Part shown: positions 1 through 38,058 of the stretch, one piece after another
Numbering within the stretch: the first letter of the stretch is position 1
Layout of the letters: each line of letters starts with the position of its first letter
Assembly: GCA_030749035.1 (NCBI GenBank)
Contig: JASMKV010000068.1
Span: forward strand, 1 to 39,599
Direction: 5' to 3'
DNA from: Myxococcota bacterium
GTDB lineage: Bacteria; Myxococcota; XYA12-FULL-58-9; JASMKV01
DNA length: 39,599 bases
Translations under genes and position numbers: made by a program
The notes under the pieces: generated by a model
Database searches by the model: none
Told to the model about the DNA's origin: nothing
Seen by the model: only the letters and a program-made list of their open reading frames with translations

Positions 1-1224
1 CACGTAACCAAAATGTTCTCGCAATGTTTCAAGCTTATATTCTTCAAGGCGATGTCCACCCAGAAAGACCCCGCCACAATCAATGTTCTCCAAACGCAAG
101 AGACAGCGTAAAAGCGTTGTTTTTCCACTTCCAACCGTACCAATAAGACCAATCGTTTCTCCAGATTTTACCTTAAACGAAACATTGTTGAGAATTTTTT
201 TCTCTTCGCGAGAAAAACTGACCCCTTCAAAACTTATCTCGGGTGAAATGGTTTTTGTACTGATCGTACCATCTTGGATTTTAGGTTCATGTCCCAGTAT
301 TTCTTCAATGCGCCACATGGCTGCTTTGGAACGTTGCCAAAGTGAAAATATCCAACCTAAGGCAAATGTCGGCCATGCCAATAGCGCCATATACTCGACG
401 ATCGCAACCAAATCTCCCAAAGTAATGCGCCCCTCCAAAACATCGAAAGCCCCCACAAAAACAACCAGCAAGATACCTGCACTGCTTAAAGACCCCGCCA
501 AGCGAAACATTCCTGAGCGAATCAAACTTTGGAAGACACAAATATCGTAATAATTTTGATTGAGCTCTGAAAAAGAATTCTCCCGCTCACCTTCGCGACC
601 AAAGGCTTTGATCACATGCGCGCCTGCAAGACTTTCCTGAACCAGCGTAGATATTTTGCCCATCTCTTGATGCTGTTTACGATGCTCAAAATAAAGTTTT
701 TTACCCAAGAACCGCATCACATAGAGGGCTGGTGGGAAAATAATAAAGCATAAAATCGTCAATTGAATCGAAATATTCCACATCAGCGGCAGTGCCACCG
801 CGTAAGCAATGATGGTATTTGTTATATTTAAAAGCCCCGGTCCCAAGAGCAATCGAACCTGGCCTAAATCATTTGTGGCTCGGCTCATCAGATCGCCACT
901 GGCGTTTTCCTGGTAAAAGCCCGGCTCCAATGAAGTCAAATGCTTATAATAATCACAGCGTAAATCTAATTCGACATCACGTGCTGAATAAAAAATATAA
1001 ATGCGACTGAGTGTCCGAAAAAATGCGCCTGCCAAGGCCAGAAGGATCAAGAGCAAAGCAATATCCCGCAACATCCCAAAAGCATCGCCTTCCTTCATAC
1101 CATCGATAGCAAAACGAAAAAGTTGCGGAATCGCCATTGTGGTGGCGTTGGTCAAAACCAACATAAAAATGCCCCAAAGCCATTTGAAGCGGTAGGCATA
1201 GGCATATTTCCATAAACGCCCCAT
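1..1224 (-). CDS. ABC transporter, fused permease/ATPase (3' end cut by window edge)
   Basis: The minus frame from an ATG at 1224 stays open to base 1 (408 codons), so the C-terminus lies outside the window. Residues about 1-290 form an ABC exporter transmembrane domain with several hydrophobic segments and the usual coupling sequences (LMSRATNDL, QESLAGAHVIKAFGRE). The nucleotide-binding domain follows, with Walker A LIGTVGSGKTT near residue 365 and the start of the Q-loop region (LREHFGYV) at the edge. The signature motif, Walker B and H-loop are missing only because of the cut. The type is MdlB/LmrA/MsbA-like, exporting lipid, peptide or drug as a homo- or heterodimer; the substrate cannot be told. 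The ATG lies directly against the stop codon of mutH, so the two are probably cotranscribed. Confidence 0.93.
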   Translation of the reverse strand, partial: MGRLWKYAYAYRFKWLWGIFMLVLTNATTMAIPQLFRFAIDGMKEGDAFGMLRDIALLLILLALAGAFFRTLSRIYIFYSARDVELDLRCDYYKHLTSLEPGFYQENASGDLMSRATNDLGQVRLLLGPGLLNITNTIIAYAVALPLMWNISIQLTILCFIIFPPALYVMRFLGKKLYFEHRKQHQEMGKISTLVQESLAGAHVIKAFGREGERENSFSELNQNYYDICVFQSLIRSGMFRLAGSLSSAGILLVVFVGAFDVLEGRITLGDLVAIVEYMALLAWPTFALGWIFSLWQRSKAAMWRIEEILGHEPKIQDGTISTKTISPEISFEGVSFSREEKKILNNVSFKVKSGETIGLIGTVGSGKTTLLRCLLRLENIDCGGVFLGGHRLEEYKLETLREHFGYV

Positions 1225-1929
1225 TTATTTTAATGACTCCAAAAGAATTTGCTCTGTACACGAAGCCCGCAAATAAAAACCCAGTGGCAACACCTGCTTT
1301 GGACCATCCTGACCTAAACCTTTTGTGCGTACCGCGCTGTGGGCAGCTTTGGGACGGACCTGCAAATAGGTCCCCATGTGTGCACTTAATTCATCACTCA
1401 TACCTGCGCCAATAAAGCCCATTAATAGGTTCCAATCCTGCTCAAGTACAGAAATCATTTTCTCACTTGGCGACCAAAGCAGTGCACGACCAAAACAACG
1501 CGCTTTTAGATCGGCAGATTTCGCCGATTCCACGGGCAACCAAAGAACTTTTTTCAATTTGTTGTGTAACCTGGACGTCTCCCAGGTTTCTCTATCCGCA
1601 TGGGCCATATCGATGGCACAGCAAAAAGTCGATTCTGAAGGGCGACCATCCGCATTTAAAGGTAAGGTTTTTAACTCTACCCCCAAATCAACAAAGTCCG
1701 GTTTTTCCCCAGCTTTAGGATCTGCGCCCAGAGCGCATTCAGCAACCAAGCCGACATAGCCTTTGCCGTATTTATTATCTTTGGGCAGCTCAATGCCTAA
1801 TCGATCTGCGACATCGCCAACACGGTTGCCACACAGAGCTTCGGCCCGTAAGCCCAGCTCAGCAATCGTCTTTGGGGCCGGCTGTCGGCTGCTTGAAGAT
1901 GTTTTTTTCAATTGAGTATACCTCTGCAT
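1225..1929 (-). CDS. mutH: DNA mismatch repair endonuclease MutH
   Basis: 234 aa, close to the E. coli MutH length (229). MutH is the methyl-directed nickase that cuts the unmethylated strand at hemimethylated GATC after activation by MutS/MutL. The family signatures are visible: acidic residue in LVAECALGA (E64), PDF (D78), and the LGVELKT motif (E85, K87), which together form the D-x(n)-E-x-K nuclease centre. Also present are TWETSRLHNKLKKVLW, LLWSP, YLQVRPKAA and a C-terminal PLGFYL matching the E. coli recognition region. The N-terminal 20 residues are extra and Ser/Gln-rich. Sau3AI-type restriction nucleases share the fold but are usually about twice as long, so MutH is preferred. No mutS, mutL or dam gene is in the window. 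The gene is divergent from def and its stop abuts the ABC transporter start. The ribosome-binding site is weak. Confidence 0.9.
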   Translation of the reverse strand: MQRYTQLKKTSSSSRQPAPKTIAELGLRAEALCGNRVGDVADRLGIELPKDNKYGKGYVGLVAECALGADPKAGEKPDFVDLGVELKTLPLNADGRPSESTFCCAIDMAHADRETWETSRLHNKLKKVLWLPVESAKSADLKARCFGRALLWSPSEKMISVLEQDWNLLMGFIGAGMSDELSAHMGTYLQVRPKAAHSAVRTKGLGQDGPKQVLPLGFYLRASCTEQILLESLK

Positions 1930-1970: not shown

Positions 1971-2546
1971 ATGGCAATTAAAGAAATAGCGCTTATTGGC
2001 GAACCGATTTTACGCAAAAAAAGTCGCTTACTTGATCCAGAAGAGATCCATCATGCCGAAACTCAAGAATGCATCAATGATATGATTGAAACGATGCATC
2101 GTGCACATGGAGCTGGAATTGCCGCCAATCAGATATTTTCTCCGCGACGTATATGCGTCATCGAAGTGAATAATAACCCGCGCTACCCTTATAAACCAAA
2201 CATACCGCTGACTGTCTTAATTAATCCGCAAATAACTTTGATCGGCTCAGAAACATTTGAAAACTACGAGGGCTGTCTAAGTGTGCCGAATTTGCGCGGC
2301 CGTGTCACACGCCATTGCGAAATAAAAATAGAGGCCTTTGATCGAGCCGGCCACAAAATTGAAAACGTGATTAAAGGAATTACCGCCGGTACCTATCAAC
2401 ATGAAATTGACCACCTTGACGGTAAACTCTTTGTCGATCGCGTTAAAGACCCAACAAGCCTGTGCACCTGGGAAGCATTTAAAAAATATAATGAAGAAGA
2501 TGTTGAAAAAGAAGTCAAAACAATTGTCCAACGCTGGGGAGAATAG
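1971..2546 (+). CDS. def: peptide deformylase
   Basis: 191 aa. It removes the N-formyl group from nascent proteins at the ribosome, using a metal (usually Fe2+). All three family motifs are present: GAGIAANQ (motif I, around residue 47), EGCLS (metal Cys102) and QHEIDH (His144, His148 and catalytic Glu145). The frame is open upstream to 1872, but that would overlap the divergent mutH. The ATG at 1971 has a GGAG eight bases upstream and gives the family-typical start MAIKEIALIGEPILR. The stop is three bases before moeA, so the two are likely cotranscribed. The insertion NNNPRYPYKPNIPL before the EGCLS motif is a type seen in some deformylase subfamilies. Confidence 0.95.
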   Translation: MAIKEIALIGEPILRKKSRLLDPEEIHHAETQECINDMIETMHRAHGAGIAANQIFSPRRICVIEVNNNPRYPYKPNIPLTVLINPQITLIGSETFENYEGCLSVPNLRGRVTRHCEIKIEAFDRAGHKIENVIKGITAGTYQHEIDHLDGKLFVDRVKDPTSLCTWEAFKKYNEEDVEKEVKTIVQRWGE

Positions 2547-2549
2547 AAA

Positions 2550-3758
2550 ATGATATCCATCGAAGAAGCACAACATCAAATTATAAACACATTAGAACCC
2601 TTGGATGAGCAAACTGTCAATATATCAGCTGCCCTGCATCGGGTATGCACAGAAAATATCTATGCAAGAGAGAACTCGCCCCTATTTGATAACAGTGCCA
2701 TGGACGGATACGCCTTAAAAGCCGAAGATACCCTAAACGCGAATCAAACAAACCCTATAACCTTGGAAGTCCTTGATAAAATACCTGCTGGCAGCCCCAC
2801 AACACATCGACTTACAAACAACCAATCTTGTCGTATTTTTACCGGTGCACCGATGCCACAAGGGGCCGACGCGGTGATTATGCAAGAAAACACCGAAGCC
2901 AAAGAAAAATCAGTAGAAATATATCGGCCAATGCGTTCAAAGGAAAATGTTCGCTTTGCTGGAGAAGATATTTGCGCGCAAGATTTGCTCTATCAAAAAG
3001 GAGATATTCTCGATGCTGGAGCGATTGGTCTTTTAGCCGCGCAGGGGATTGCACAAGTCAAAGTCTCACAACGTCCAAAAATTGCCGTTGTACCCACCGG
3101 TGATGAGATTGTGGAGTTAGGACAGAACCTTCAACCAGGACAAATTCGAAATTCAAATGCCTACATGCTTGCTGCACAAGTTGAGCAAGCTGGCGCACAG
3201 AATGTGAAAAGCCCTATTGCCTACGACACACTCGAAGCACTGCGGCATGCACTTACCCAAAGTGCAAAAAATGCCGATCTGATCATCACCTGTGGTGGCG
3301 TTTCCGTTGGCGAATTCGATCTGGTTCGTAAAATTATCGAAGAAGAGGGTTCTTTAAACTTTTGGCGAGTCGCAGTGAAGCCGGGAAAACCCTTACTTTT
3401 TGGCCATTTCAACAACACCCCACTGATTGGTTTACCGGGTAACCCGGTATCGGCCTTCGTTTGTTTTGAGCTCTTTGTCCGCTTAGCCATTAAAAAATTA
3501 CAAGGCGCCAAACCCACAAAACACGATTTTGAAATGGCCATACTCAACAAAAACGTTAAACCAAATAAGAAACGCACAGAATTTTTGCGCGGCAAGTGTT
3601 TTTCAAAAGATAAAAGTAGGCTTGTAGAGCCTCATTCCAAGCGGGGCAGCGGTCACTTAAGCTCTATCACACATATCAATACACTCATTGAAATTCCGCC
3701 AGGTGAAAAAGAAATACAAGCTGGTACCTATGTAAAAATTTTATCTCTTAAGAATTAA
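2550..3758 (+). CDS. moeA: molybdopterin molybdenumtransferase MoeA
   Basis: 402 aa, a typical MoeA length. It inserts molybdate into adenylylated molybdopterin to give active molybdenum cofactor in the cytosol. Visible features are the N-terminal MoeA_N region with PLFDNSAMDGYA, the central MoCF-binding domain with VVPTGDEIV, TCGGVSVGEFDLV and GLPGNPVSAFVCFELF, and a C-terminal beta-barrel (MoeA_C) from about residue 325. It lies three bases downstream of def. The presence of both moeA and selC in this genome segment fits a genome using molybdo/seleno-enzymes such as formate dehydrogenase, but none is encoded here. A 14-base repeat element begins within its stop codon. Confidence 0.96.
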   Translation: MISIEEAQHQIINTLEPLDEQTVNISAALHRVCTENIYARENSPLFDNSAMDGYALKAEDTLNANQTNPITLEVLDKIPAGSPTTHRLTNNQSCRIFTGAPMPQGADAVIMQENTEAKEKSVEIYRPMRSKENVRFAGEDICAQDLLYQKGDILDAGAIGLLAAQGIAQVKVSQRPKIAVVPTGDEIVELGQNLQPGQIRNSNAYMLAAQVEQAGAQNVKSPIAYDTLEALRHALTQSAKNADLIITCGGVSVGEFDLVRKIIEEEGSLNFWRVAVKPGKPLLFGHFNNTPLIGLPGNPVSAFVCFELFVRLAIKKLQGAKPTKHDFEMAILNKNVKPNKKRTEFLRGKCFSKDKSRLVEPHSKRGSGHLSSITHINTLIEIPPGEKEIQAGTYVKILSLKN

Positions 3759-4423: not shown

Positions 4424-6250
4424 TTATAAATTAACAACAAGCTTAAGTGCTGAACCGCGTGTATGGAATTTTTTAATCTCTGCAGAAACGCTTTTCTCAC
4501 GCGATTTGCCACTTCTGTCGACACCGACAATCTTAATTTTATGCTTACCAACAATATACTTGTGAAAAAGTAAAGGTGAGTACCCTACTTCTTTACCATT
4601 GATAAAAATCTTTGCATTCCTTGCCCCGTTGGCTTTGATAGAAATAAAACCATAAACTTTAGGAGGGGGCGGAGGAGCCGGAGACTCGGGCGCCTTTACT
4701 TTTTTGGCTTTTTCAACTTTGACCGATTCCTGAACGGCAACCTTTACCTCCCTGGACGGTCCTGCTTTTTTCTTTGTTGGGGGCCTTTTACGCGCTTTTA
4801 CCTTTGGTGTCACAGGCACAACATCTTCTTTGGGCTCCTCTGCTTTAGGTTTTGTCGCAGTAACCTCAACCTTTTTAACCACCGTTTGCGCAGGAGGGCT
4901 TACATTGGTTTGAGCACGCCAAAATTGTTTCGCATAATAGCCTCCCAAAACAGCCAGCGGGATGGCCAAGAGCATCAAGACAAATGGAATTCTTGATGTG
5001 CGGCCACCAGTTTGTTTTGTCGTGCTCACTTGTGTTTCTGTAAAATCTTCGCGCTTATTGGTGTTCAGCGTTTGAAAGTCCAGTGCCGTCGGGTTGTATT
5101 CTGAAGAACGATCGACCTTCGTTGAAAAGGCTTCGCCCAGAGATTCAAAATTATCTCTTGCCTCGGCCTGATGCGCATCGGCGTTTAAACGTACTGTTGA
5201 ATTAAAAACTTCGGTAGATGCCTCGGGCCCCTCTCCGCCTATCGAGGCCACGCAATCCAACTGGTTAATCTGCATGTATCTCGCCATTTGTTCGCGCAAA
5301 AATTCAATTTCAGAGCTGTAGAGTTCATACATAAATGCTTTGGCCTGCTTGGCGCCGTAGATTCGATTTTCACTGATCAACAAGGGCGTCAGTTTTTCTG
5401 CAAATTCTGACGCATAAGCGTAGCGGTCATCGGGATCTTTCGCCAAGCACATATTCGCAATCTCGCCAAGCCCCTCTGGCGCACCTTCAAGTTCGACACG
5501 CATATCAGGAACTTCCGCGTCCCTGGCCTTCATAAGGATAGAAAGTTCACTCTCCCCTGTATACAGACGTTTGCCCGTATAAAGTTCGTAAATAAGAGCG
5601 CCCAGTGCAAAAACATCCACCCGATGGTCAATTTTTCTGTCCGAAAGCTGCTCTGGTGCCATGTAGGAAAATTTTCCCTTTACAACCCCCGCCTGAGTCT
5701 CTGAGGCACGAGCCTCACTTTCGGCTTTAGCGATACCAAAATCCACAACTTTAACTTCACCGTCATAAGAGACCAAAATATTTTGTGGGCTCACATCTCT
5801 ATGCACCAAATTTAAATGTTTTCCATCAACATCCACAAAGCGATGCGCATAATCCAAGCCCTCACCGGCTTTAGCCAAAATATAAGCAATAAGTTGTGTC
5901 GGAATTTTAAGATTCTTTTTTGCCGCTGTTTTCATAATGTGGCGCAAATCACGCCCATTCACGAGTTCCATGGCAATATAGAGGCGCTCGGTTAAACGCC
6001 CTAATTCATAAATCTGTACAATATTCGAATGACTTAATTTAGACGCAAGCTTGGCTTCATCAATAAACATCTTAATGAAGTCTTCATCCTCAACCAAATT
6101 AGGCAACATGCATTTTATGGCTAAAAGCCTCTGAAATTCCGCGACGCCTGAAATTTTGGCGCGGTAAACTTCTGCCATTCCGCCCGAAGCCACCCGATCG
6201 AGAAGAATGTACTTACCAAAATGGGACGGAAATCGTGTATTCGAAGACAT
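4424..6250 (-). CDS. membrane Ser/Thr protein kinase with C-terminal PEGA-like domain
   Basis: 608 aa. Residues about 12-290 are a Hanks-type kinase: glycine loop ASGGMAEVY, ATP lysine K46 in LAIK, catalytic loop VHRDVSPQN (D152), DFG at 170-172, activation segment ending APE (198-200), and DVFALGALIYEL. All catalytic residues are intact, so it should be active. A linker of about 130 residues follows, then one membrane segment (about 421-440), a Lys/Pro-rich stretch with PAPPPPP, and a terminal PEGA-like beta domain (KIFINGKEVGYSPL) that would be extracytoplasmic. This architecture is common in Myxococcota. The gene is single, convergent with hup and divergent from selC. The FHA protein encoded at 10005 is a conceivable phospho-Thr reader, but that link is inference. 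Confidence 0.93.
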   Translation of the reverse strand: MSSNTRFPSHFGKYILLDRVASGGMAEVYRAKISGVAEFQRLLAIKCMLPNLVEDEDFIKMFIDEAKLASKLSHSNIVQIYELGRLTERLYIAMELVNGRDLRHIMKTAAKKNLKIPTQLIAYILAKAGEGLDYAHRFVDVDGKHLNLVHRDVSPQNILVSYDGEVKVVDFGIAKAESEARASETQAGVVKGKFSYMAPEQLSDRKIDHRVDVFALGALIYELYTGKRLYTGESELSILMKARDAEVPDMRVELEGAPEGLGEIANMCLAKDPDDRYAYASEFAEKLTPLLISENRIYGAKQAKAFMYELYSSEIEFLREQMARYMQINQLDCVASIGGEGPEASTEVFNSTVRLNADAHQAEARDNFESLGEAFSTKVDRSSEYNPTALDFQTLNTNKREDFTETQVSTTKQTGGRTSRIPFVLMLLAIPLAVLGGYYAKQFWRAQTNVSPPAQTVVKKVEVTATKPKAEEPKEDVVPVTPKVKARKRPPTKKKAGPSREVKVAVQESVKVEKAKKVKAPESPAPPPPPKVYGFISIKANGARNAKIFINGKEVGYSPLLFHKYIVGKHKIKIVGVDRSGKSREKSVSAEIKKFHTRGSALKLVVNL

Positions 6251-6352: not shown

Positions 6353-6451
<99 letters not shown>

Positions 6452-33382: not shown

Positions 33383-33385
33383 CGT

Positions 33386-33535
33386 TTATTTTGATGCGGT
33401 GACAACGGCTAAACGATGCCGACCTTTTTGACGACGTGCTTTGAGTATCTTTTGACCGGCTGCAGTCGAAGCGCGTTTACGGAAACCGTGTTTACGTTTA
33501 CGTCGACGGTTGTGTGGTTGAAATGTCCGTTTCAT
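33386..33535 (-). CDS. rpmH: 50S ribosomal protein L34
   Basis: 49 aa, read directly from the minus strand: start [20 protein letters not shown], with GRHRLAVV near the end. This is the conserved L34 pattern of small, highly basic sequence. GGAG lies five bases upstream of the ATG at 33535. It is the first gene of the run rpmH-rnpA-yidD-yidC-jag, divergent from dnaA, the classical bacterial origin arrangement. Confidence 0.97.
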
Positions 33536-33590
33536 GGGTCTCCAACTTCCTTTCTAAAAAAACTATTCTATTATTAGCTTGTTGGCGGCC

Positions 33591-33618
33591 TTTTTACCTG
33601 CACAGAGCACTTTGTCAA
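33591..33618 (-). promoter_or_regulatory. probable promoter of rpmH
   Basis: On the minus strand, TTGACA (33618-33613) and TAAAAA (33596-33591) are separated by 16 bases and lie about 55 bases upstream of the rpmH start. Confidence 0.55.
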
Positions 33619-33936
33619 TGGGGCAGAAGTGGTTTTTCGCACTTGAGCCACTTAAGCCTATTCTTTGGGGCCACAAAAGATCCTTAGGCCCCTATTTTCT
33701 ACGGTGATCTTTTAAAACAAAGAAAAGCACAATTTTCGCGCTTGACTTGAGAACAGCCTCCTCGCTAATAGAGATAATACTATTGAAAGGTAGTAACGAC
33801 TTAAGCAAAGCAAAATGATTGCGTGACAAGACATTTTGATACTTTGAACGGGGGAAGGGTGAAAACGGCGCCCAAGCGCACATTCAATTCACCAACACCA
33901 AAAATTGAGTTACACGTATTCTTAGCTTGGAAAAGC

Positions 33937-33957
33937 TGTGGATAGGTTTGTGGATAA
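33937..33957 (-). promoter_or_regulatory. DnaA box pair upstream of dnaA
   Basis: TGTGGATAG and TGTGGATAA, the second an exact complement of the consensus TTATCCACA, are spaced 12 bases apart (start to start) in the same orientation. Confidence 0.75.
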
Positions 33958-34027
33958 AAAGTGAATAAGGACTTTATGTCTTTGTTTTTATTTGTAATTT
34001 TAAAAATAACGGTCCTGTGAATAACTG

Positions 34028-35431
34028 ATGCTAAAACAACAAATTGATATCCATACACTCTGGGCTAACTTTTTGTCCGTCGCCCGTACGAAAGTTTCTG
34101 CCCACGTCTGGCAAACTTGGTTTAAACCCATTCAACCGCGTGAAATTGTGGATGGTACACTTATTCTTGCGGTCCGAGATCAATTTTTTAGGGATTGGTT
34201 ATCCGACCATTATCTCGATTTTATTCGTGACCATCTCAACGATATTGCCGGCGAGAACTTGGCCTTGGATTGGTCCTTAGATCCAACCATCAAAGCTGCC
34301 ATGGTGGATTCAAATGAAGATATGGCCGGAGAAACTGAGGTCTTGCTTGAAAATACCCAGGAGGTCGTATTCAACCCGCGTACACAGGCACTCTATTCCA
34401 AACAGTTTAATCCCCGCTATACCTTCGATACGTTTATTGCAGGCCCCTCAAATCAATTGGCCTTTGCCGGCTCTAAAGCGGTCGCTGAAAACCCAGCCAG
34501 CTCTTATAATCCACTCTTCCTTTTTGGTGGTGTGGGTTTAGGCAAAACACACCTTATTTCGGCCATTGGGCAACAAATCCTGCAAGATAGACCCGGTGCA
34601 CGTGTGATTTATACTTCTGCCGAACAATTTGTGAATGAAGTCATTGCCGCCGTTCGATTTTCAAAACTCGAAGAATTCCATGCCAAATACCGTCGAAATT
34701 GTGATGTTATTTTAATTGATGATATTCAATTGATTGCCGGAAAAGTGCGTACACAACATGAATTTTTTCATGTTTTCAATACCTTATATGACTCGCAGCG
34801 CCAGATCGTCGTCACCTCTGACAAGCTTCCGCATGAGATACCGGATATTGAGGAGCGTCTGCGCTCACGTTTCCAATGGGGTCTTATTGCCGATATTCAG
34901 CCTCCAGAACTTGAAACACGTGTCGCTATTCTGCAAAAGAAAGCTGAAAATGATAAAATTGATTTGCCTGATGAGGTTTTACATTTCCTAGCTTCCAGCA
35001 TCCGCTCTAACGTCCGTGAATTAGAAGGTGCCCTCGTTCGTATTGCTGCCCATTCTTCCTTAACGGGCTCTGCAATTGATATCAACTACGCGCGTAACGT
35101 CTTAACAGACATCTTAAGCACAAGGCCCGCACAAATATCCATTGAATCCATTCAAAAAACAGTTGCAGGATACTACCAAGTTAAAATGGGAGACCTGAAA
35201 AGTGCCAGTCGACAAAAAGTGATTGTCCGCCCAAGACAAGTCGCCATGTATTTATGTCGAAAACATGCAGGTGCATCTTATCCTGAGCTTGGAATTAAGT
35301 TTGGAAATAAAGATCATACAACTATCTTGAGTGCCTTTAAGAAAATAGGTTCCCTTCTTAAAGAAGATCCAACCCTACGCTCAGAGGTTTTTGCCCTTGA
35401 ACGCAAGCTGGATTTAACCAATCTGGTCTAA
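34028..35431 (+). CDS. dnaA: chromosomal replication initiator DnaA
   Basis: 467 aa. DnaA opens the origin. Domain I is at the N-terminus (WANFLSVARTKVSAHVWQTWFKPI), then a variable linker of about 60 residues. The AAA+ domain has Walker A GGVGLGKTH (K173) and Walker B CDVILIDDIQ. The C-terminal DNA-binding domain IV has the signature CRKHAGASYPELGIKFGNKDHTTILSAFKKI. It starts just after a cluster of DnaA boxes and is divergent from rpmH. Upstream boxes suggest self-regulation. The stop is followed by a short palindrome GTCTAA-TT-TTAGAC (35426-35439). Confidence 0.97.
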   Translation: MLKQQIDIHTLWANFLSVARTKVSAHVWQTWFKPIQPREIVDGTLILAVRDQFFRDWLSDHYLDFIRDHLNDIAGENLALDWSLDPTIKAAMVDSNEDMAGETEVLLENTQEVVFNPRTQALYSKQFNPRYTFDTFIAGPSNQLAFAGSKAVAENPASSYNPLFLFGGVGLGKTHLISAIGQQILQDRPGARVIYTSAEQFVNEVIAAVRFSKLEEFHAKYRRNCDVILIDDIQLIAGKVRTQHEFFHVFNTLYDSQRQIVVTSDKLPHEIPDIEERLRSRFQWGLIADIQPPELETRVAILQKKAENDKIDLPDEVLHFLASSIRSNVRELEGALVRIAAHSSLTGSAIDINYARNVLTDILSTRPAQISIESIQKTVAGYYQVKMGDLKSASRQKVIVRPRQVAMYLCRKHAGASYPELGIKFGNKDHTTILSAFKKIGSLLKEDPTLRSEVFALERKLDLTNLV

Positions 35432-35666
35432 TTTTAGACTCTTCATCTTTAAAAATGACATTTTTTTGAAACTTTTTTCACAAAAGATCGCCATAATTTA
35501 CACTCATTTTTGTGTATAAAGTGTGACTAAGACTTTGAATGAAACTGTGATTAAAATGTGGCTTTCTTCAATCGTCGACTTACCCACAATTTTTTAGCAT
35601 TTCTATACAAACCATAAACACAATTAAAAAAATCAAACTTGGCTATTTTTTAAAGATAAATCCGGC

Positions 35667-35706
35667 TTATCCACATATGCACAGCCCATTATTATTATTA
35701 TTATTT
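35667..35706 (+). promoter_or_regulatory. consensus DnaA box beside ATT-repeat tract (candidate unwinding element)
   Basis: TTATCCACA at 35667-35675 is followed about 13 bases later by ATT repeats and further A/T-rich DNA, the arrangement expected at an origin. Confidence 0.55.
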
Positions 35707-35767
35707 TCTTTATAACTATAAGATAATTAAAGAGGGAAGAGCTTCATCGGACCTGACTTTCAAAGGC

Positions 35768-35796
35768 TTGACAAAAGCAGCGCAAAACCCTAGCTA
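35768..35796 (+). promoter_or_regulatory. possible dnaN promoter
   Basis: A perfect -35 TTGACA (35768-35773) is followed after 17 bases by TAGCTA (35791-35796), a weak -10. It lies 26 bases upstream of the dnaN start. Confidence 0.35.
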
Positions 35797-35821
35797 CCTG
35801 AGAACAGCTAAGGAATAAGCC

Positions 35822-36934
35822 ATGAAATTTACCACGCAGTCTTCCGAACTTACCAAAGCCCTTTTTCGAGTCCAGGGTATCGCCGATAAAAAAAGTACCA
35901 TGCCTATTTTAGCGCATGTTTTAATTGAAGCCAGCAATGCAGGCGAGCTTCGTTTGAGTGCCACAGATTTAGAAGTGGGTTTAACAGGAAACTATAGCGC
36001 TGAGGTGAAAAAACCAGGCTCGATTGCAGTACATGCCCGACATTTATACGATATTTTGAAATCCCTTCCAGATGGTGATGTTGATTTTGAAGTGACTGAT
36101 AATCATTGGATTAAAATTACTTCAGGGAAATCAAACTTTAAATTGGTTGGTATGACGGGCGACGATTTTCCAAACCTGCCCTCACATACAGAAACGGATA
36201 TTTTTAAAATTCCATCTGATGATTTAGCGCAAATGATTGAACGCACAATATTTTGTGTTTCTTCCGATGATAACCGACACAATCTTTCTGGCGTATATTG
36301 TGAAGTCAGAGACCAAAAAACGCTTCGTTTAGTCGCCACCGATGGTCATCGACTTGCTTTTACAGAAAAAAACTTCACCAATGAACTGCCTTTTGAGGAT
36401 GGCGTTATTGTTCCTAAAAAAGGCTTTCAAGAGCTTCGACGCGTTTTACAAGATAATGACGCTGTAGAAACTGTAGAGCTTGGGTTCACCAACAACAGTG
36501 GCTTTTTAAGAGCTGATAATGTGACTCTGACAACCCGTTTAATTGAAGGTCAATTTCCAGATTACCAACAAGTGATACCTAAAGATTCCGGTGAAGAAAT
36601 ACGTATTTCTAAATCTAAATTAGGACAAGCTTTAAAGCGTGTTTCATTATTATCCCAAGGAAAATCTTATGGTGTAAGATTTCAATTCAATGATAACACC
36701 CTTGAACTCGTCGCAGAAGATCCTGAATTAGGTAATGCCCATGAATCTATCGAAGTTGCTTATCAAGGTGAGCCACTGACAATAGGTTTTAATGCACGCT
36801 ATATTATGGAGGTTCTAGGCCTTATCTCTGAAGAAAGCATTTGTTTAGAATTAACCGATGATTTATCGCCAGGAATTATTCAACCGCTTGAGGAAAAAGG
36901 TTTCCTTACGGTTATTATGCCTATGCGTATCTGA
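35822..36934 (+). CDS. dnaN: DNA polymerase III beta sliding clamp
   Basis: 370 aa. The clamp tethers polymerase III to DNA as a ring dimer. It shows three repeated clamp folds with the typical start MKFTTQSSELTKALFRVQGI, central RLVATDGHRLAFTEK, and the C-terminal PMRI motif region. It is 17 bases upstream of recF and downstream of the A/T-rich region, in the canonical dnaA-dnaN-recF order. Confidence 0.97.
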   Translation: MKFTTQSSELTKALFRVQGIADKKSTMPILAHVLIEASNAGELRLSATDLEVGLTGNYSAEVKKPGSIAVHARHLYDILKSLPDGDVDFEVTDNHWIKITSGKSNFKLVGMTGDDFPNLPSHTETDIFKIPSDDLAQMIERTIFCVSSDDNRHNLSGVYCEVRDQKTLRLVATDGHRLAFTEKNFTNELPFEDGVIVPKKGFQELRRVLQDNDAVETVELGFTNNSGFLRADNVTLTTRLIEGQFPDYQQVIPKDSGEEIRISKSKLGQALKRVSLLSQGKSYGVRFQFNDNTLELVAEDPELGNAHESIEVAYQGEPLTIGFNARYIMEVLGLISEESICLELTDDLSPGIIQPLEEKGFLTVIMPMRI

Positions 36935-36951
36935 TAGCTTAGTCAGATGTT

Positions 36952-38058
36952 ATGTATATTGAGCGTCTTCAATTAAAAAATTTCCGTAATATAGAATCCA
37001 TCAACACGGCCGTAGAAAAATCCTGGGTTGTGATCTCTGGCAACAACGCCCAAGGTAAAACAAATCTTTTAGAAGCCCTCTATATAGCCTCTACAGGACA
37101 ATCATTTAGAAAAAGTCTTCTTAGTGACTTCATTAAAGATAATCATGAAAACAGCATTATTCGTTGTCAAATCATCAAGCAAAATGTGCGTCATCAAATA
37201 GATGTTCAATTACAAAAAACAAAAAGAAGTATTCGTGTTGATGATAAACCGCTCAGAAGTTTAACTAAACTTTTAAGTCTTATGAATATTGTGGCTTTTT
37301 TTCCCGATGATTTAATGCTTGTTAAAGGCAGTCCAGAAGGTAGAAGGAAATTTATTGATCGCTGTGCTTTGAGTTTTTACCCCGACTCTGCTGATATTTT
37401 TAAGGCGTTTCGTCGGTCATTAAAGGAACGCAATAGTATTTTAAGAAAATACCAGAGGCAGGAACAAAAATTAGATGTACAACTTCTTAAGGCTTTTGAT
37501 GAACAGCTCATAAAATATGGAGCGAAGGTTCATCAGTATCGTAAAGATGCTTTAGATGAGTTAAAAAAATACGTTGAGCATTATTTATTAGAGTTTAATG
37601 TCATCAAAGATAGTCTTGAAATAAGCTTAGAGCCTGGTGTGCCTATTCACGATATCAATTCTTTTCAAAGTTCATACAGAAGGGCTTTGGCGGAAAGTAT
37701 GCAAATAGATCAAATAAGAGGATTAACAACAGTAGGGCCGCAAAGAAGCGATTTATTATTTAATCTTGATGGTAAAGAGGCTAAATCCTTTGCATCTCAA
37801 GGACAACAAAGATCTCTGGTATTGGCGCTTAAATTGGCTGAACTTAAAGTCATTGAAGAAAAGGTAGGTTGTGCCCCTCTTCTTATTTTAGATGATGTTT
37901 CCAGTGAGCTTGATCAGACAAGAACCGAGTATCTTTTTAAGGCTATAGAGGATCTTGGATGTCAGGTTTGGATCTCTACAACAGGCAGTGTGGATTTAAA
38001 GATCCCCAAAGAAAACCACCATTTCAACATCACAAATGGCGCTCTTAAAGAGCTCTAA
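36952..38058 (+). CDS. recF: DNA replication and repair protein RecF
   Basis: 368 aa. RecF is an SMC-like ATPase that helps load RecA at gaps. Walker A is SGNNAQGKTNLLEAL (about residues 29-43), with QLKNFRNI at the N-terminus, the signature TTVGPQRSDLLFNLDG, SQGQQRSLVLALKLAE and Walker B PLLILDDVSSELD near the C-terminus. It is 17 bases downstream of dnaN, so the two are probably cotranscribed. Confidence 0.96.
   Translation: MYIERLQLKNFRNIESINTAVEKSWVVISGNNAQGKTNLLEALYIASTGQSFRKSLLSDFIKDNHENSIIRCQIIKQNVRHQIDVQLQKTKRSIRVDDKPLRSLTKLLSLMNIVAFFPDDLMLVKGSPEGRRKFIDRCALSFYPDSADIFKAFRRSLKERNSILRKYQRQEQKLDVQLLKAFDEQLIKYGAKVHQYRKDALDELKKYVEHYLLEFNVIKDSLEISLEPGVPIHDINSFQSSYRRALAESMQIDQIRGLTTVGPQRSDLLFNLDGKEAKSFASQGQQRSLVLALKLAELKVIEEKVGCAPLLILDDVSSELDQTRTEYLFKAIEDLGCQVWISTTGSVDLKIPKENHHFNITNGALKEL

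Follow-up and report, generated by a model that had tools for sequence, protein, structure and literature searches.

The window, by which we mean the whole 39,599-nucleotide stretch of DNA that was analysed, is contig C68 of a MAG of 3.97 Mb in 527 contigs (97.7% complete, 2.1% contamination). It encodes dnaA, dnaN, recF, recA, clpPX, lon, an FHA protein and a Ser/Thr kinase. An open reading frame of 234 aa fills positions 1225–1929 of the minus strand exactly; this gene and its surroundings are laid out as follows (G188 to G194 are other genomes of the window's order).

1–1224, minus strand: ABC exporter truncated at the contig end, with membrane and ATPase domain
1225–1929, minus strand: mutH, MutH mismatch-repair endonuclease, 234 aa, assigned from the ORF list and from profile, PDB, residue and model matches
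1971–2546, plus strand: peptide deformylase, divergent neighbour of mutH, near mutH also in G188 and G190
2550–3758, plus strand: moeA, molybdopterin biosynthesis, near mutH also in G188 and G192
4424–6250, minus strand: Ser/Thr protein kinase, with a homologue near mutH in five of seven relatives of the order (G188, G191, G192, G193, G194)

A selenocysteine tRNA gene lies between the kinase and NamZ genes (6353–6450, plus strand), and a likely origin region (rnpA/rpmH-dnaA-dnaN-recF) spans 33383–38058 with no GATC cluster, there being two sites in the 645 bp before dnaA. Nor are GATC sites enriched across the window (147 versus 175 expected). Neither of the two features considered as marks of Dam/SeqA control, a cluster at the origin and general enrichment, was seen there, and the idea was rejected.

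A reading of this DNA from its sequence only had remarked on the unusual placing of mutH directly before an ABC exporter. The placing is real, the TAA stop of mutH being followed at once by the exporter ATG, but direct adjacency was found only in the window and not in relatives of the order; a functional link between the two genes was rejected on this ground and the exporter context is regarded as incidental. The genes that recur near mutH in the order are those for peptide deformylase, a Ser/Thr kinase and MoeA. Among contigs that bear a name, those with the nearest MutH are “Bdellovibrionales bacterium F1-60-MAGs024” and “Myxococcota bacterium isolate bin.157”, both placed in the window's order; “Bdellovibrionales” is the submitters' label, and the classification used here moves that relative into the order. 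The second contig bears out the impression of a Myxococcota-like setting, and the host is not gammaproteobacterial.

Profile searches with the window protein returned Pfam MutH (E 1e-26), and the NCBIfam MutH equivalog models gave 223.8 and 190.5 bits, slightly missing the curated thresholds of 243 and 229.9. Residues 18–230 matched the PDB MutH entries 2aoq and 2azo at E about 1e-49 to 1e-48, with a far weaker match to Sau3AI (E 3e-5), and identity to the MutH proteins of E. coli and H. influenzae is ~42%. The best PDB matches of an AlphaFold model (pLDDT 88.7) were DNA-bound MutH structures (TM 0.85–0.87, 1.6–1.7 Å); the model has the MutH fold in common with known MutH structures at 1.6–2.9 Å, while its superposition on Sau3AI gave 2.7 Å with 20% identity. 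Eleven of eleven residues checked (K48, G49, E56, D70, E77, K79, F94, K116, R184, P185 and Y212) are those of E. coli. Among them are E56, D70, E77, K79 and K116, the active site of E. coli MutH, and F94, R184, P185 and Y212, engaged in DNA contact and methyl sensing; the full-length match is thus accompanied by both the catalytic and the methyl-sensing/recognition sets. These data confirm that the window ORF is a genuine MutH and not a chance match, and the earlier description of a canonical-looking protein retaining every catalytic and recognition block stands. Its predicted function is MutL-stimulated nicking of hemimethylated GATC. At the K116 position, all seven relatives in the order (L010–L012, L014, L016, L018, L020) carry arginine; the window protein carries lysine.

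Besides its single MutH, the genome encodes one Dam-family methylase (contig C385), one MutL (C202) and one MutS (C460, a match of 907 bits). The Dam scores 293.7 bits against TIGR00571 (cut-off 114.85), and its closest solved structure is DpnM (2dpm, E 1.5e-65), followed by E. coli Dam (E 2e-41). It is 57–62% identical to the Dams of G188, G189, G190 and G192 and 52% to that of G191, versus 35% to gammaproteobacterial Dams. A GATC methylase in the same genome had been predicted from the presence of MutH, and a Dam-family adenine methylase with relatives native to the order was indeed found; family membership suggests that its specificity is GATC. The wider search that had been proposed, for dam, seqA and the MutL endonuclease motif, thus yielded dam and a MutL without the motif, while SeqA was absent from the window genome as from all 195 genomes of the phylum (0/195). 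SeqA is the usual companion in Gammaproteobacteria; it has no part in the repair step and is hence not defining.

The resemblance to DpnM, which is part of a restriction system, raises the question of whether the locus might instead encode a GATC-cutting restriction enzyme of the Sau3AI type, or a DpnII/Sau3AI-like restriction-modification remnant partnered by the Dam-like methylase, all the more as fold and sequence similarity are common to MutH and Sau3AI. However, the window protein scores 224 bits with MutH models and 51 with Sau3AI, and it possesses the C-terminal Y212 methyl-sensing region. Sau3AI proteins have about 470–510 aa, a second MutH-like half and an adjoining cytosine methylase, whereas the window protein has 234 aa and lies between exporter and peptide deformylase genes. 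mutH and dam are on different contigs; dam is flanked on C385 by genes for an aldehyde dehydrogenase and a protein of unknown kind, with no restriction gene beside it, and the Sau3AI partners found in this analysis are cytosine methylases. In a tree of MutH and Sau3AI proteins, a check that had been suggested beforehand, the window protein grouped with MutH and not with the restriction enzymes (outgroup 100/100). We therefore regard the restriction-enzyme explanation as very unlikely.

Contamination as the source of this gene set was considered and rejected on the basis of the tetranucleotide profile, the lack of duplicate markers and the order-specific Dam and MutH. Tetranucleotide correlation with the sampled bulk genome is 0.81 for the window and 0.61, 0.64 and 0.55 for the mutL, dam and mutS contigs; most native contigs of like size fall at 0.47–0.82, and 5-kb pieces of order relatives at 0.17–0.40. 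No second copies of 21 window genes were present in 539 kb of other contigs sampled. The GC content of the window contig, 0.44 versus 0.49 for the sampled genome, seemed suspect when taken by itself, but another contig of the genome has 0.43. The tetranucleotide match and the lack of second gene copies make contamination unlikely, and composition assigns the mutH, dam, mutL and mutS contigs to one organism. One genome, then, holds a MutH intact at the residue level, MutS, a methylase of the Dam family and a MutL devoid of nuclease motifs.

Of the phylum's 195 genomes surveyed, 25 have MutH, as do all eight of the window's order. It is also encoded by Sorangium cellulosum So0157-2 and Minicystis rosea, both represented by complete genomes, and by further Polyangiaceae (the Polyangia sample comprises the named Polyangia genomes that the scan turned up). 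The notion that MutH is chiefly gammaproteobacterial is correct in that it is commonest there, but exceptions have been published (PMC2734928), and the two complete genomes are further cases. A tree built from 103 MutH proteins placed those of Gammaproteobacteria in one clade (100/97), which leaves out all eight sequences of the window's order, and those eight in another (99/97).

Gammaproteobacteria being by far the commonest home of MutH, mutH (with dam) could have been acquired recently from a gammaproteobacterium, and a Sau3AI-rooted tree did place the root among gammaproteobacteria, with the Myxococcota as one nested clade (97/94). The outgroup stem in that tree measures 10 substitutions per site, so this rooting was dropped as unreliable; at best it would indicate an ancient transfer. 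Judged by the tree, the separate clades exclude a recent transfer of mutH. The Dam is far closer to most Dams of the order than to gammaproteobacterial ones, the neighbours of mutH are common to the order, and the GC3 of mutH falls within the range of the neighbouring genes. Recent acquisition is in our estimation extremely improbable; the data can accommodate one ancient transfer, whichever its direction. Where transfer or an independent lineage had been offered as alternatives, the phylogeny points most likely to an old, divergent MutH lineage, vertically kept in the order, and not to a recent gift from Gammaproteobacteria.

Divergent MutH-like proteins of families f31 and f29 (L017, L021, L024–L027) may be other subfamilies; in f31 they occur alongside a MutL whose motif is intact, in f29 alongside a MutL lacking it and on very long branches. 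One MAG labelled Gammaproteobacteria (SJ809, L120) has a MutH outside the gammaproteobacterial clade, either a mislabelled contig or a transfer, and an unannotated phage scaffold from human faeces (L275) encodes a Sau3AI-like protein.

The MutL of the window genome has recognisable ATPase and dimerisation domains, but where nuclease-active MutLs have DQHA(X)2E(X)4E it reads DCKRLAQAHFRVHM, and it contains no CPHGRP block. In an alignment with N. gonorrhoeae MutL (3ncv), the D of the motif and a few alanines align, while the H and both E residues are lost. The combination that had been named as telling against methyl-directed repair, a genome with no methylase and an intact MutL motif, is thus the reverse of what was found: Dam is present and the MutL motif is gone. 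Across the order, the nuclease motif is gone from the MutLs of G188, G190, G191 and G192, as is an intact CPHGRP (G192 retains PHGRP without the C); the MutL of G189 lacks CPHGRP, that of G193 retains both DQHA(X)2E(X)4E and CPHGRP, and that of G194 is broken off at a contig end. The order is not uniform in this respect, since the G193 motif is intact and the genomes G193 and G194 (86% and 92% complete) yielded no D12 methylase.

In the Polyangiaceae with MutH (Sorangium, Minicystis and others), the MutL DQHA(X)2E and CPHGRP motifs are intact. Co-occurrence of MutH with an intact MutL motif, there and in G193, would fit a hybrid form of repair in which MutH is an accessory nick-maker, strand choice is still made by MutL nicking or replication ends, and MutH-dependent repair is partial. 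Both motifs have been lost from the window-genome MutL, so MutL nicking is not expected there, and we consider hybrid repair unlikely for this organism. A general association between MutH and loss of the MutL motif was also examined. The core is broken in 16 of 36 scored MutH-bearing genomes versus 4 of 62 MutH-free ones, raw counts in which part of the MutH-free sample was chosen by high MutL_C score and so favours intact motifs. The contrast was not upheld in phylogenetically independent pairs: among seven, about two were concordant and none opposite, and the link is not significant after phylogenetic correction. Two further patterns were observed within the survey. The complete 4.4-Mb genome G162 of the same phylum (L005, L096, L276) has MutH and an altered MutL motif (DLHA, CLHGKP), with two N6_N4-class methylases and no D12/Dam-type methylase found; genomes of family f19, most of them 9–13 Mb (L103, L241–L257), have an altered MutL (DPHA..E, CIHGT, or DPRA) and no MutH found.

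The data presented above have led us to propose that the window gene is very probably the native MutH of a myxobacterial order, inherited vertically and serving methyl-directed mismatch repair of the E. coli type. In the model, Dam would methylate GATC sites, leaving the new strand briefly unmethylated after replication. MutS would find a mismatch and recruit MutL, and this MutL, itself devoid of the nuclease motif, would activate MutH; MutH would then nick the unmethylated strand at a hemimethylated GATC, allowing the new strand to be removed and resynthesised. The GATC specificity, hemimethylation sensing and MutL activation of MutH that these steps call for in this organism are predicted from the gene set and its conserved residues. 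The MutH is ordinary in its anatomy; its setting, a myxobacterial order with the full set of Dam, MutS, MutL and MutH, is unusual but coherent.

Methyl-directed repair is usually presented as a gammaproteobacterial speciality (PMC8744996; PMC2734928). In the latter, a 2009 study, MutH outside Gammaproteobacteria is noted as “a few exceptions”, MutH and the MutL nuclease are described as mutually exclusive (citing Kadyrov 2006), and every MutL from an organism with a known MutH is said to lack the nuclease motif. Judging from their sequences, the Polyangiaceae genomes with MutH and an intact MutL motif contradict this exclusion rule. A search of papers open without subscription found none describing MutH in Myxococcota. 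New here is a Myxococcota series in which MutH occurs in some members with an intact MutL and in others with a MutL whose nuclease has decayed. This series could perhaps, though we hold the view only tentatively, preserve evolutionary stages: MutH beside a nuclease-competent MutL (Polyangiaceae, G193), then repeated independent loss of the MutL nuclease (the window's order and several other families). If true, the staged reading would break the supposed mutual exclusion of MutH and the MutL nuclease motif. With MutH beside both an intact and a decayed MutL nuclease in an old home outside the Gammaproteobacteria, at the level of a phylum, the question of how the E. coli system arose can be tested directly, cultured Sorangium included.

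Among known systems, Sau3AI has the fold and the GATC-type active-site block in common with the window MutH; it differs in being twice as long, in its cytosine-methylase partner and in its much weaker sequence score. The Dam-MutS-MutL-MutH system of E. coli and H. influenzae resembles that of the window genome in the key residues of MutH, the Dam family, MutS and a MutL without the endonuclease motif. It differs in that the window's host belongs to the Myxococcota and has no SeqA, its Dam resembles DpnM more closely than E. coli Dam, and its MutH falls outside the gammaproteobacterial clade. The Polyangiaceae (Sorangium cellulosum, Minicystis rosea) are like the window genome in combining a non-gammaproteobacterial MutH with a Dam-family methylase, but their MutL retains the DQHA(X)2E and CPHGRP motifs that the window-genome MutL does not.
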